64,000 nucleotides of DNA, from the NCBI GenBank assembly GCA_902826695.1, contig CADEFU010000001.1, positions 124,001-188,000 of the forward strand. The letters run 5' to 3'. This stretch comes from an uncultured Alphaproteobacteria bacterium. Lineage in GTDB: Bacteria > Pseudomonadota > Alphaproteobacteria > Micropepsales > Micropepsaceae. The notes under the pieces were generated by a model. It worked only from the letters and a program-made list of their open reading frames with translations, searched no databases and was not told where the DNA came from. The translations under genes and the position numbers were made by a program. The first letter of the stretch is position 1. Each line of letters opens with the position of its first letter. Shown in pieces: positions 57,992 to 61,872 of this stretch.

Positions 57992-58020
57992 CCGCCACTT
58001 TTCCGAAGACGAAAAATCGT

Positions 58021-58093
58021 ATCCGTTAGATGCGTTAGATCGGCGGATTTGCGCGACTTCATCCGTTAGATATCCGTTAGATATCCGTTAGAT
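58021..58093. repeat. 11-bp direct repeats ATCCGTTAGAT
   Basis: Four exact copies of ATCCGTTAGAT lie at 58021-58031, 58061-58071, 58072-58082 and 58083-58093. The last three abut head to tail with a strict 11-bp period. A partial copy (GCGTTAGAT) follows the first. They fall in the 346-bp gap between btaB and the GFA gene and are markedly AT-richer than the surroundings. No gene overlaps them. An array of regulator-binding sites on one helix face is plausible. Confidence 0.9.
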
Positions 58094-58128
58094 TGGTCGT
58101 ATCATCCGTATGGATGCGCGATGCTGTG

Positions 58129-58164
58129 CGCGTAAGCGTGCACGCAACGGTGCACGCTACGCGC
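58129..58164. repeat. Long inverted repeat (hairpin)
   Basis: AGCGTGCAC and GTGCACGCT (58135-58143, 58150-58158) form a perfect 9-bp inverted repeat with a six-base loop. With one bulged base the pairing extends outward through GCGCGTA and TACGCGC to about 15-16 pairs. No T-run follows. It lies 36 bp after the 11-bp repeat array and may be a terminator-like or regulatory element. Confidence 0.65.
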
Positions 58165-58337
58165 GACGCTCCGGCGCCGGACGTTCTCCCACAATATGCA
58201 ATTTTCAAGTCGCAGCCGCTCGCCGTTGCCGACGAGGGAAATAGGCGCGTTTCGCGCTTGCGCGGGGCGCCGCGAAGATTTAGAACAAATACAGAACAGT
58301 CGTGCGAAAAGCAAGCATTCCAAGTGAGGAGACTCCC

Positions 58338-58742
58338 ATGACCCTGACAGGCCGTTGCCACTGCGGCGCCATCGTATTCGAGGCTGAGGGCCCACCAATC
58401 TCACATGCGCTTTGTCACTGCGGCGATTGCCGGCGTTCAGCCGGCGCGCCGATGGTCGGCTGGGCGATGTATCCGGAAGCGGCCGTGAAGGTCGTGCGCG
58501 GGACGCCGAAGGTCTACGCGTCGTCGGAGCATGGGCGGCGCCACTTCTGCGGCGACTGCGGAACGGGGCTGCTCTATACCAACGCGCAGAACCTGCCCGG
58601 CATCATCGACACGCAGAGTGCGACATTCGACGATCCGAACGCCGTGCCGCCGCAAGTGCATATTCAGGTGGCGGAGCGACTCGCGTGGATGGAGCGCGCG
58701 CACGAGCTGCCGGCGTTCGAGCGGTATCCGGCGGGACCATGA
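58338..58742 (+). CDS. GFA family zinc protein
   Basis: A 134-residue protein of the glutathione-dependent formaldehyde-activating enzyme (Gfa/CENP-V) fold. Zinc ligands: GRCHCGAI at the N-terminus, LCHCGDCRRSAGAP, and HFCGDCGTGLLY. The founding enzyme promotes adduct formation between glutathione and formaldehyde; most family members have unknown substrates. GAGGAG precedes the ATG by about seven bases. The repeat-rich region lies just upstream. Confidence 0.9.
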   Translation: MTLTGRCHCGAIVFEAEGPPISHALCHCGDCRRSAGAPMVGWAMYPEAAVKVVRGTPKVYASSEHGRRHFCGDCGTGLLYTNAQNLPGIIDTQSATFDDPNAVPPQVHIQVAERLAWMERAHELPAFERYPAGP

Positions 58743-58849
58743 GGTTGAGGGTGAGATGCGGCTGCGCTTGGTGTGCGATCGTGCGCGCCTTACGATGTTC
58801 GTGATTCTCGAACGAGTTGACACGAACGAGGCTCGCGCGGCTCAGCGTC

Positions 58850-59581
58850 ATGAACGACTTCCCTCTAAGCCCTGAACTCCACCGTCACGCCGGATCGGCG
58901 CGAGTGGCCGGGGCACCGTTGATCGTCGGAGTTGCTGGCAGTGTCGCGGTAGGCAAGAGCACGTTTGCATCGGGGTTGGCCGGTGCGATCGCGGCTTGGC
59001 CGGAGGAGACGAGCGTCATGGCTTCCGCGACCGACGGGTTTCTCTTTCCCAATTCGGTGCTGGAGCAGCGCGGTCTTAGTCTGCGCAAGGGTTATCCGGA
59101 GACTTTCGATGTTGCGGCCATGCAGGCGGCGTTTGAGGGTGTGAAGGCGGGGCGGCGCATGGCACTGCCGCGGTATTCGCACGCTACGTACGATGTCGAC
59201 TACAGCGATCCGCTGATCGTTGAGCGGCCGCATGTGCTCATTCTTGACGGGTTGCACCTGGCGCAGGTCGAGCGCCCGGGCGAGGCGCGGCTGATCGACG
59301 TGCTCATCTATCTTGATGCGCCGGAAGACGTTCTCGAAGCATGGTTCACGGCGCGACTGCTTCCGTTGATGCGGACGGGGCGCGACGATCCGGCTTCATT
59401 CTACCATCGCTTTCGCGCATTGGACGATGCGCAGTGCGCTGCCTTCGCCAAGAGCGTTTGGGAAAACATCAACCTGCCCAATCTGCGCGAGCACATTGTG
59501 AAGGACCGTGAGGCTGCGGACTATGTCGTCACCAAGGCGCGCGATCATTCCATTGCGCATATCGAGCGGCGCGCGCGGTAG
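58850..59581 (+). CDS. CoaA-like P-loop kinase, short form
   Basis: A 243-residue kinase most similar to type I pantothenate kinase: IVGVAGSVAVGKSTFASGLA (P-loop), TDGFLFPNSVLEQRGL, KGYPETFDV, YSHATYDVDYSD, VLILDGLHLAQ, and ENINLPNLREHIVKDREAADYVVTKARDHSI. E. coli CoaA is about 316 residues with some 90 residues before the P-loop; here there are only about 30. It could be a true but shortened pantothenate kinase or a paralogue with another substrate. No strong ribosome site is seen. Confidence 0.8.
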   Translation: MNDFPLSPELHRHAGSARVAGAPLIVGVAGSVAVGKSTFASGLAGAIAAWPEETSVMASATDGFLFPNSVLEQRGLSLRKGYPETFDVAAMQAAFEGVKAGRRMALPRYSHATYDVDYSDPLIVERPHVLILDGLHLAQVERPGEARLIDVLIYLDAPEDVLEAWFTARLLPLMRTGRDDPASFYHRFRALDDAQCAAFAKSVWENINLPNLREHIVKDREAADYVVTKARDHSIAHIERRAR

Positions 59582-59720
59582 CCGAAATGAGGTGGCGCGA
59601 GGGCTTGCGGCCGGTGGTCTGCACCACGCAGCGTTTCTGGGCATGCGTGCGTTCGCGTTGCGGGTGAATCGACGTGCGAACCCGCTAGCGCTAGGCTGGA
59701 GATCTCTTGGAGGAAGCCAC

Positions 59721-60296
59721 ATGAAACTCGCTTCGATCATCGTCGTCCCGTTGGCGCTTTTGCTTGCGGCGTGCGAGCAGCAGAAGACGCCGCAACAACA
59801 ACAGCAATCGGCACCGCCAAAGGTGCAAAGCGGTACGGCGTACTCGTACGCCAATTTGCCTTCGATGCCGAAAGCTGCCGATGGCGCGGATGGGTCCGGT
59901 TGTCTTGCCGACACGGGGCCGCTGCCGGATGGGATTTGGTACGGCACTGTCGTCGCGTGGACGGCGACGAGCCTCGACCTCGATCCGGCGTGCTGGTTCA
60001 CCGGGGCGGAAGCGGCGAAGGAGGCAACGAAGCGCGGTGAAGAGTCGCCGCCGCCGAACGACTTCCTCGTCGCGAATGACAGTAAGGTGGTGCGCAAGAT
60101 TCCGGTCGCGCCGAATACGCCTGCGCTGCGCGTCACGCATGACAAGGACGGCGGTATCGAAAATCAGAAGACGACCTATGCCGATATGACTGCCAATTCG
60201 GGCACCTACATCCAGTGTCCTGGCGACGGCTGTTCGGTCTGGGTGGCCGTCAACGGCGGCGTCGTGACGGAAGTGAGTATGCAATACTTGCCGTAG
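59721..60296 (+). CDS. Lipoprotein of unknown function
   Basis: A 191-residue protein with a type II signal peptide: lipobox LLAAC, lipidated Cys at residue 18. A Gln/Pro-rich linker follows, then a domain with CLADTGPLPDGIWYGTVV and CPGDGCSVWVAVNGG near the end. GGAGGAAG precedes the ATG. Not recognised as a known family. Confidence 0.75.
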   Translation: MKLASIIVVPLALLLAACEQQKTPQQQQQSAPPKVQSGTAYSYANLPSMPKAADGADGSGCLADTGPLPDGIWYGTVVAWTATSLDLDPACWFTGAEAAKEATKRGEESPPPNDFLVANDSKVVRKIPVAPNTPALRVTHDKDGGIENQKTTYADMTANSGTYIQCPGDGCSVWVAVNGGVVTEVSMQYLP

Positions 60297-60464
60297 CGGC
60301 GTTCCGCCCCAGGCTTAAGAAGGCTTGTCTGCCGACCGGCAGCGTTCTTGACGGGTACTATTCGGTGCGAGCGCTCCGGCAGAGCGCCTGCGTTCACGGA
60401 ATATTCGTTACTCTCGACCGATGTTCGGCAGCTTCGTCGCGATTCAGTTTGTGTCCGCCATCCC

Positions 60465-61685
60465 ATGAAAATTCTGATCGTTCATAACTACTACCAGCAG
60501 CGCGGCGGCGAGGATGCCGTCGTGGAGGCGGAGAGCAAACTTCTTAGCGAGCGCGGGCATCAAGTCGAACTTTTCACCGCGCACAACGACGACATCAACA
60601 CGTGGTGGAAGAAGATTTGGGTGGGCTTGACGACGGTTTACAATCCGTTCGCACGGGCGCGGCTGTTTGCGAAGCTTCGGGCGTTCAAGCCGGACGTCGT
60701 GCATGTGCACAATTTCTTCCCGCAGCTTTCGCCCTCGATCTTTCATGCATGCCATGCGGCGGGTGTGCCGGTCGTGATGACGATGCACAATTTTCGGATT
60801 CTTTGCCCGACCGCGTTTCTGTTCCACGACGATAAGCTGCGCGAACAGAGTCTGAGACGGTCGGCATTTTGGACCGTCCGGCACCGGACATATCACGACT
60901 CGTGGATGCAGACGGCGATCATTGCGGCGATGGTCGACTTTCACAAGTGGTGGGGGACCTGGCAGCGAGACGTGGACCGATTTATCGCGCTCACCGAATT
61001 TGCGAAGGCGAAGTTTATCGAAGGCGGCATTCCGGCAGAGCGGATCGTGGTCAAGGGCAACGCACTTGGCGGCGAGATTGCAGCGCCGGGGCCGGGGCTG
61101 CGGCGCGGCGGGCTCTATGTCGGGCGGCTCAGCCCCGAGAAGGGGATCGGCAATCTGCTCGAGGCATGGAAGGGGTTCGACTACCCGCTTCGCATCGTGG
61201 GTGACGGGCCGATGCGCGCGGAATGCGAGGCGGCACAGCGCGAGAACGCGAACATCGTCTATCTGGGACGCAAGAGTTCGAACGAGGTCTACGAGGAGAT
61301 GCGGCGGGCGGCGTTTCTCGTCATGCCGTCGGTTTGGTACGAGATGTTTCCAATGACTTTGCTCGAAGCGTTCGCGAACGAGTTGCCGATCGTGGCAAGC
61401 CGGCTCGGCGCGCTTGAAAGTTTGTTGGATGAGGGCGTGACCGGACTCTATTTCAACCCGACCTGTCCGAAGGATCTGCGCGCGACCGTGGAGCGGGCCA
61501 TTGCCGATCCGGCGCGGCTTGAGGTCCTGGGCGCGCACGGGCGGGTGCTTTATGAGAATCTGTACTCGGCGGAAGTGAACTACCTCAAGCTCTTGCGGAC
61601 CTATACGGTCGTGATCGAATCCAATTCGCGCGGCGCTTTTGCGCCGCCGGACGACATGACCACGATCGGATTCGGCGCGGCTTAA
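60465..61685 (+). CDS. Glycosyltransferase family 4
   Basis: A 406-residue GT-B enzyme. The N-domain has MKILIVHNYYQQRGGEDAVV (acceptor-side Gly-rich loop) and VVHVHNFFPQLSP. The C-domain has GLYVGRLSPEKGIGNLLEAW and the EX7E-like nucleotide-sugar block WYEMFPMTLLEAFANELPIV. Such enzymes build capsule, LPS or exopolysaccharide; no other polysaccharide genes are seen nearby. Cytoplasmic or membrane-associated. No clear Shine-Dalgarno. Confidence 0.9.
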   Translation: MKILIVHNYYQQRGGEDAVVEAESKLLSERGHQVELFTAHNDDINTWWKKIWVGLTTVYNPFARARLFAKLRAFKPDVVHVHNFFPQLSPSIFHACHAAGVPVVMTMHNFRILCPTAFLFHDDKLREQSLRRSAFWTVRHRTYHDSWMQTAIIAAMVDFHKWWGTWQRDVDRFIALTEFAKAKFIEGGIPAERIVVKGNALGGEIAAPGPGLRRGGLYVGRLSPEKGIGNLLEAWKGFDYPLRIVGDGPMRAECEAAQRENANIVYLGRKSSNEVYEEMRRAAFLVMPSVWYEMFPMTLLEAFANELPIVASRLGALESLLDEGVTGLYFNPTCPKDLRATVERAIADPARLEVLGAHGRVLYENLYSAEVNYLKLLRTYTVVIESNSRGAFAPPDDMTTIGFGAA

Positions 61686-61737
61686 GGCGGTTAATCCCGT
61701 TCTTGCACCGCGCCATGCAGTCGGGTAGACGTTGCGG

Positions 61738-61766
61738 CCCGCGCGGCGCCTTTCGCGCGGGTCTTC
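61738..61766 (+). terminator. Probable terminator
   Basis: An 8-bp GC-only stem CCCGCGCG/CGCGCGGG (61738-61745, 61754-61761) with an eight-base loop and TCTTC after it. It follows the glycosyltransferase gene and precedes tRNA-Ser by 12 bases. The short T-run makes it weaker than the others. Confidence 0.5.
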
Positions 61767-61778
61767 ATGTGGTTTTGA

Positions 61779-61872
61779 GGAGCTGTGGCCGAGAGGCTGA
61801 AGGCGGCGGTTTGCTAAACCGTTATACAGTTGAAAAGCTGTATCGAGGGTTCGAATCCCTCCGGCTCCGCCA
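61779..61872 (+). tRNA. tRNA-Ser (anticodon GCT)
   Basis: A class II tRNA: acceptor GGAGCTG/CGGCTCC, anticodon stem CGGT/ACCG around TTGCTAA (anticodon GCT), a long variable arm (ATACAGTTGAAAAGCTGTAT), T-arm GAGGG/CCCTC around TTCGAAT, and encoded CCA at 61870-61872. Confidence 0.97.

Follow-up and report, generated by a model that had tools for sequence, protein, structure and literature searches.

The parC site of plasmid R1, which is bound by ParR, and the Pho boxes consist, like the arrays described here, of several sets of 11-bp direct repeats with one unit per helical turn. The repeat units described here differ from both in sequence. In contrast to R1 parC, the copies are scattered over the chromosome, and a reading of their neighbours finds no partition genes beside them. 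The BOX elements of streptococci are modular intergenic repeats in which one module varies in number, as is the case here, but the BOX modules are longer; the two families are set apart by description only. This also holds for the STAR elements of staphylococci, whose sequence is, to our knowledge, unrelated to that of the elements here. The hosts of STAR and BOX are distant Firmicutes, whereas the present elements are alphaproteobacterial. STAR elements are interspersed intergenic direct repeats, with several to many copies per genome (PMC3532100). Their loci expand and contract while their sequences stay locus-specific, which resembles the present case; STAR loci are reported there to differ between species, whereas many sites here are common to species; and the abstract mentions neither a dyad core between unit sets nor a LexA-type promoter, both of which are features of the family here. 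REP sequences and BIMEs with their RAYT proteins are likewise species-specific, dispersed, intergenic and protein-binding and may be mobilised in trans (PMC2817692), and RAYT-like genes exist in the genus of this bacterium as well. However, REPs are palindromes of alternating orientation present in more than 100 copies, whereas direct repeats surround a small dyad core about 20 times per genome here. The LexA consensus of Caulobacter is GTTC(N7)GTTC (PMC12907096). As in the SOS boxes of Alphaproteobacteria, a GTTC(N7)GTTC box overlaps a predicted promoter here, and the same box precedes lexA, but many such promoters face non-coding repeat arrays. Searches of the literature outside subscription journals found no published description of the element, and the family appears to be undescribed.

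The window, the whole stretch of 64,000 nucleotides that was analysed, carries a short repeat between the stop codon of btaB and a GFA-family gene. Exact copies of ATCCGTTAGAT start at 58021, 58061, 58072 and 58083; the last three abut, and Tandem Repeats Finder reports 3.0 copies at 100% for 58061-58093. A copy with one mismatch, ATGCGTTAGAT, lies at 58030, offset by 9 bp from the 58021 copy, and a degenerate copy, ATCCGTATGGAT, lies at 58104. These positions confirm four perfect copies, three of them abutting, with an imperfect copy in addition, as the earlier note described; the distance of about 245 bp that it gave to the next gene agrees with the 244 bp measured to the ATG of the GFA-family gene at 58338. 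The 11-bp period that it proposed holds for the units at 58061-58093 but not throughout, since the unit-to-unit spacings are 9, 31, 11 and 11 bp, and the window array is thus not one continuous 11-bp run. The G+C content of the repeat stretch is 45% by direct count. The repeat is one module of a larger dispersed composite intergenic element, which has the following features in the window:

58007..58314, minus strand (the direction of the predicted transcript): whole composite element, delimited by the sequence model and flank comparisons, its right limit being set by the predicted promoter
58007..58020, plus strand: left end, a degenerate GATGCAAAATCGA, from the alignment of 14 genome copies
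58021..58040, plus strand: left unit pair ATCCGTTAG / ATGCGTTAGAT, 9 bp apart, read from the sequence
58041..58056, no strand: dyad core CGGCGGA-TT-TGCGCGA, from the family motif YSGCNNA-NN-TNNGCSR and column counts
58061..58093, plus strand: right array of three perfect 11-bp units (four in most family members)
58104..58115, plus strand: degenerate distal unit ATCCGTATGGAT, out of register by one base, read from the sequence
58135..58158, no strand: GTGCAC-rich inverted repeat AGCGTGCAC / GTGCACGCT
58197..58240, no strand: predicted hairpin module ATTTTCAAGTCGCAGCCG-CTCGCCG-TTGC-CGACGAG-GGAA with one stem mismatch; the motif is nearly confined to elements, and the stems vary yet stay complementary
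58283..58297, minus strand: predicted LexA-type box GAACAAATACAGAAC, overlapping the -10 region of a promoter that reads leftward
58309..58314, minus strand: TTGCTT, candidate -35 hexamer of this promoter, weak and missed by a generic promoter scan

GTGCACG-type sequence is also found to the right of several other element copies. The 11-mer ATCCGTTAGAT has 23 exact copies in the 4.3-Mb genome, compared with 1 for a reversed control, and nearly all of them sit in short arrays. With a sequence-only model built from 14 genome copies, 18 elements are detected over their full length in this genome, at approximate E values between 5e-29 and 2e-23. Each element begins with a GATGCAAAATCGA-type left end and a pair of units 9 bp apart; a 20-bp spacer that contains the 16-bp dyad core comes next, and then units every 11 bp. 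All units are direct repeats in a single orientation. The right-hand units, usually four, decay distally. The left units match the 11-bp consensus at 10.3 and 9.1 of 11 positions and the right units at 9.9, 9.9, 8.3 and 7.1, and matches beyond the fourth right unit are close to chance. Exactly four right units are present in 13 of the 17 measured elements (range 3 to 7; three in the window copy). A scan for spacing only, blind to unit sequence, yields 144 positions scoring at least 28 in about 0.26 Mb and 0 after shuffling, with positions around one element counted repeatedly and the scanned DNA chosen around elements.

If the array were a neutral tandem repeat, gaining and losing units by replication slippage, this would explain why right-hand units number from 3 to 7, why distal units decay and why units are alike within an element. 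However, the same composite architecture recurs in relatives and at 18 unlinked loci of this genome, the left pair shares the type of the right array although the core sets it apart, and the association with the hairpin and the LexA box is strong. Because the model finds 18 full elements and the spacing scan separates so clearly from its shuffled control, neutral slippage is contradicted, and we consider it very improbable. A neutral repeat of varying copy number, which had been put forward in the earlier note, is disfavoured by the genome-wide recurrence of the arrays, their presence in relatives and the prevalence of four right units. That note had named absence from close relatives and from the rest of the genome as the sign of such a repeat; arrays are present in both, although the btaB site itself is empty in the readable relatives. 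A CRISPR array was also rejected, since the right units abut every 11 bp and have no spacers.

The dyad core has GC in 122 of 122 half-sites of 61 elements, a count obtained with an anchoring procedure that favours GC. The two halves of a core agree within an element no better than after permutation. Because they share a motif without covarying, the core favours a protein-dimer site and argues against an RNA stem; a hairpin in the core was rejected on the same ground. A structured RNA over the array was rejected too, because no covarying pairs are found over it and the folding z is near 0. The element at the leuB-like gene of L113 (0-831) ends 3 bases before the start codon, which leaves no space for a usual ribosome-binding site downstream of the element.

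To the right of the array, an optional predicted hairpin module is built of TCAAGTYGCAGCCG and a stem, then usually GGAA. TCAAGTYGCAGCCG occurs ten times in the genome, and nine of these copies lie about 195-275 bp to the right of an array start; the sole copy of the hairpin motif in this genome that has no detected array alongside is at G000:C13:314-327. The 24 hairpins compared, which come from four species, have 22 different stems, and every stem is complementary with at most one mismatch. Beyond the hairpin, a GAACN7GAAC box is often present in a sigma-70-like promoter that points at the array. The strict GAACN7GAAC sequence has 35 copies in the genome against 6 of a reversed control, and 9 of them lie within about 360 bp to the right of an array. 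Of 54 elements from four species, 27 have a LexA-type box with the side and strand that the arrangement predicts, compared with about 0.3 expected. It overlaps a leftward promoter, often predicted as CTTGACTT with 16-17 bp to TATTTTTG, and two such boxes lie upstream of lexA in the same genome. The predicted promoter of the window (box at 58283-58297) is directed to the array and away from the GFA gene, and its GTTC(N7)GTTC operator appears to lie over the promoter, as in the LexA regulon. The element family is strongly associated with predicted LexA promoters and the hairpin. The box is recognisable in only about half of the elements and in none of the sampled elements of two relatives (G001 and G003); SOS control is therefore dispensable for the array.

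A promoter that faces the array, and a hairpin whose pairing is kept despite different stems, would also be expected of a family of SOS-induced non-coding RNA genes. The repeats would then act as RNA, for example as a sponge presenting AACGGAU every 11 nt, and the hairpin would be the structured 5' part. However, the stretch that contains the array folds with about the same energy as shuffled sequence (mean z -0.34), no terminator is found near the window copy, and unit sequence is free to vary between elements. The dyad core and the 11-bp helical spacing are what is expected of a double-stranded DNA site. Nor does the element match Rfam, which identifies only two tRNAs in the window, the best local match being rpfG with 25.5 bits against a threshold of 75.9. 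We regard this RNA-level explanation as unlikely.

The elements are flanked by unrelated housekeeping genes (trpE, ndk, xseA, leuB, clpB and others; genes are ORF-based calls named from a reading of their sequences), which are often oriented away. Behind a left gene that reads towards it, an element usually begins 1-40 bp past the stop codon, and some elements lie between convergent genes. A search of the genome and relatives for arrays upstream of genes, as the earlier note had suggested, finds the 18 elements here and a family in the genus but no coherent downstream gene set. A Pho-box-like regulon with a PhoB-type array was ruled out, because the neighbours are unrelated housekeeping genes. 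The suggestion of a binding array for a regulator survives in part: the fixed architecture, the helical spacing, the 18 loci and the dyad core are in its favour. However, the elements are not plain sets of regulator sites in front of the genes of a regulon, because their neighbours are unrelated, several of them lie just past stop codons, and the repeats make up a single module within a composite element. Local GC skew is positive around 13 of the 18 elements, which is not significant and is confounded by gene strand; replication polarity was rejected as an explanation.

Many elements occupy orthologous places in two or three species. At the xseA locus, the unit type has changed between species although the flanking promoter is conserved. 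At L102, the flanking genes are 37 bp apart in a relative (G002) and 259 bp apart in this genome (G000); G002 thus has one clean empty site there, with a junction too diverged between species for a target-site duplication to be called. None of the eight relatives whose sequence downstream of btaB was read has an element at that site. Relatives mostly have a tRNA-Ser gene within about 70-170 bp after btaB, whereas in the window this tRNA gene is at 61779. The intervening stretch of about 3.7 kb (57992-61779) comprises the element, the GFA gene, a kinase-like gene and a glycosyltransferase.

The main rival to a protein-binding platform is that the elements are non-autonomous and mobile, or remnants of such elements, in which the core and the arm-like units would be recognition sites for a transposase or site-specific recombinase encoded elsewhere. 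Copies would spread and be exchanged between sites, the element resembling an att site with arm-type sites or a transposase-bound repeat. Dispersal among unrelated genes, presence or absence at orthologous places such as L102 and the btaB site, and differences in unit type between orthologous sites are consistent with this explanation, as are three places in G002 at which an array has a Y1 (PF01797) transposase gene no more than about 0.9 kb away. However, the window element, L100, L102 and L107 share no terminal inverted repeats, which a MITE or classical non-autonomous transposon would be expected to have; the right end is not defined; and many sites are common to different species. The two arms of an element agree in type, which indicates that the halves are not freely shuffled. 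Moreover, none of the 3 Y1 genes of this genome is near an array. In G002, 3 of 6 are (L318, L319, and L320 with the array of L287, all RAYT-like); at two of these the arrays lie only to one side of the gene. Upstream of one array-linked Y1 gene of G002 there is a palindrome of its own. These positions do not fit the cognate RAYT gene flanked by its own repeats that characterises REP/BIME systems, and the units are direct repeats in one orientation rather than palindromes in alternating orientation. A RAYT-like transposase was rejected as the acting protein, because proximity is confined to G002 and at least one gene has its own palindrome. The mobile-element explanation is possible, but we hold it to be somewhat less likely than the platform. 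Some Y1 transposase genes have GAACN7GAAC just upstream (L321 ~4190, L322 ~2190, L328 ~1781, L336 ~1852) and may be LexA-controlled themselves. A phage or plasmid origin was rejected after a search of both collections gave no match; 11 viral contigs have other 11-bp CGTTAG repeats, none of them, by inspection, with the element architecture.

Units are alike within an element and unlike between elements and between orthologous sites. The types found across species and elements are CGTTAG, CGTTTG, CGTTAT/CGTTCG, CGTCTG, CGTGGC, CGTAGC, CGTAAC, CGTTAC/CGTTGC and CGCTAC. Within an element, the left pair matches the right array far better than when elements of one genome are permuted (0 of 2000 permutations in both G002 and G007). 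Unit type is therefore coherent within each element. Several types occur side by side in one genome, so a single binding protein would need to tolerate them. Some sites orthologous to elements of this genome carry a different short array with TGTCYCA / GAGACA motifs (L278 ~720-900 and the start of L292 in G007; L281 ~810-920 in G002); at L281 it is followed by the same hairpin module and a LexA-type box. A rather improbable proposal is that the elements form a new class of genome-wide nucleoprotein element, in which each copy would carry an internally matched address around a dimer core, these addresses would turn over at fixed chromosomal sites, and recognition or exchange between copies would be SOS-regulated. 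The address would be the variable bases of CG(T/C)NNN common to the units of a copy, and DNA damage would control transcription through the addresses; we rate this part, too, as improbable.

The model matches 28 sites in G001, 26 in G007, 18 in G002, 10 in G005, 7 in G009 and 6 in G003, and G010 has two weak matches. Scores are modest for G001, G003, G009 and G010, but alignment reveals the same arrangement in G001 and G003. No match is found in 85 genomes from other genera of the family. The architecture pattern that ignores unit sequence shows a clear enrichment in the genus only (22 vs 0, 20 vs 1, 17 vs 1 and 12 vs 0), and same-family genomes outside it give mostly control-level counts. The relatives, several of them fragmented assemblies, include the records JABFRX01, JAGOBA01 and JAEUML01, all uncultured Alphaproteobacteria. 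The elements thus form a genus-specific family with fixed geometry, restricted among the genomes searched to one uncultured alphaproteobacterial genus. The arrays of G001 (L158-L169) have CGCTAC units and then TCACACAGTGTGTATGCACA-like sequence, and no GAACN7GAAC is found near them. Tandem pairs or triples of elements, about 90-120 bp apart and differing in unit type, are common (for example L141, L144, L146, L147 and L148 in G007, and L120 and L123 in G002).

The likeliest explanation, which we put forward tentatively and at somewhat less than an even chance, is that the array is a platform for a putative multimeric DNA-binding protein, placed in an SOS-inducible transcription unit. The protein would dock on double-stranded DNA, with a dimer on the core and one protomer per helical turn stacked along the direct units. 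At elements that have the LexA-type promoter, leftward transcription through the platform would be turned on by DNA damage. The transcript would express a hairpin-bearing RNA, and its synthesis may clear or remodel the bound complex. Our best guess is that the platform acts as a local roadblock or organiser at gene boundaries, to be released in the SOS response. Points counted for such a platform are the 18 elements of one architecture, the spacing scan, the 13 of 17 elements with four right units, the distal decay, the core without covariation, the lack of supported RNA pairing, the LexA boxes at 27 of 54 elements and before lexA, the -35 element at 16-17 bp in many of these, and retention at orthologous places. 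Against it are counted the boxless half of the elements, the several unit types per genome and the sites that are empty in relatives. If this explanation holds, the family would be a compact system that unites a repeat array with a dimer core and a DNA-damage promoter about 20 times per genome. The naturally varied units would then be a ready-made variant series for finding the binding protein, and the elements would provide a test of how dispersed bacterial repeats are kept uniform inside each copy even as they come to differ from copy to copy and from species to species.
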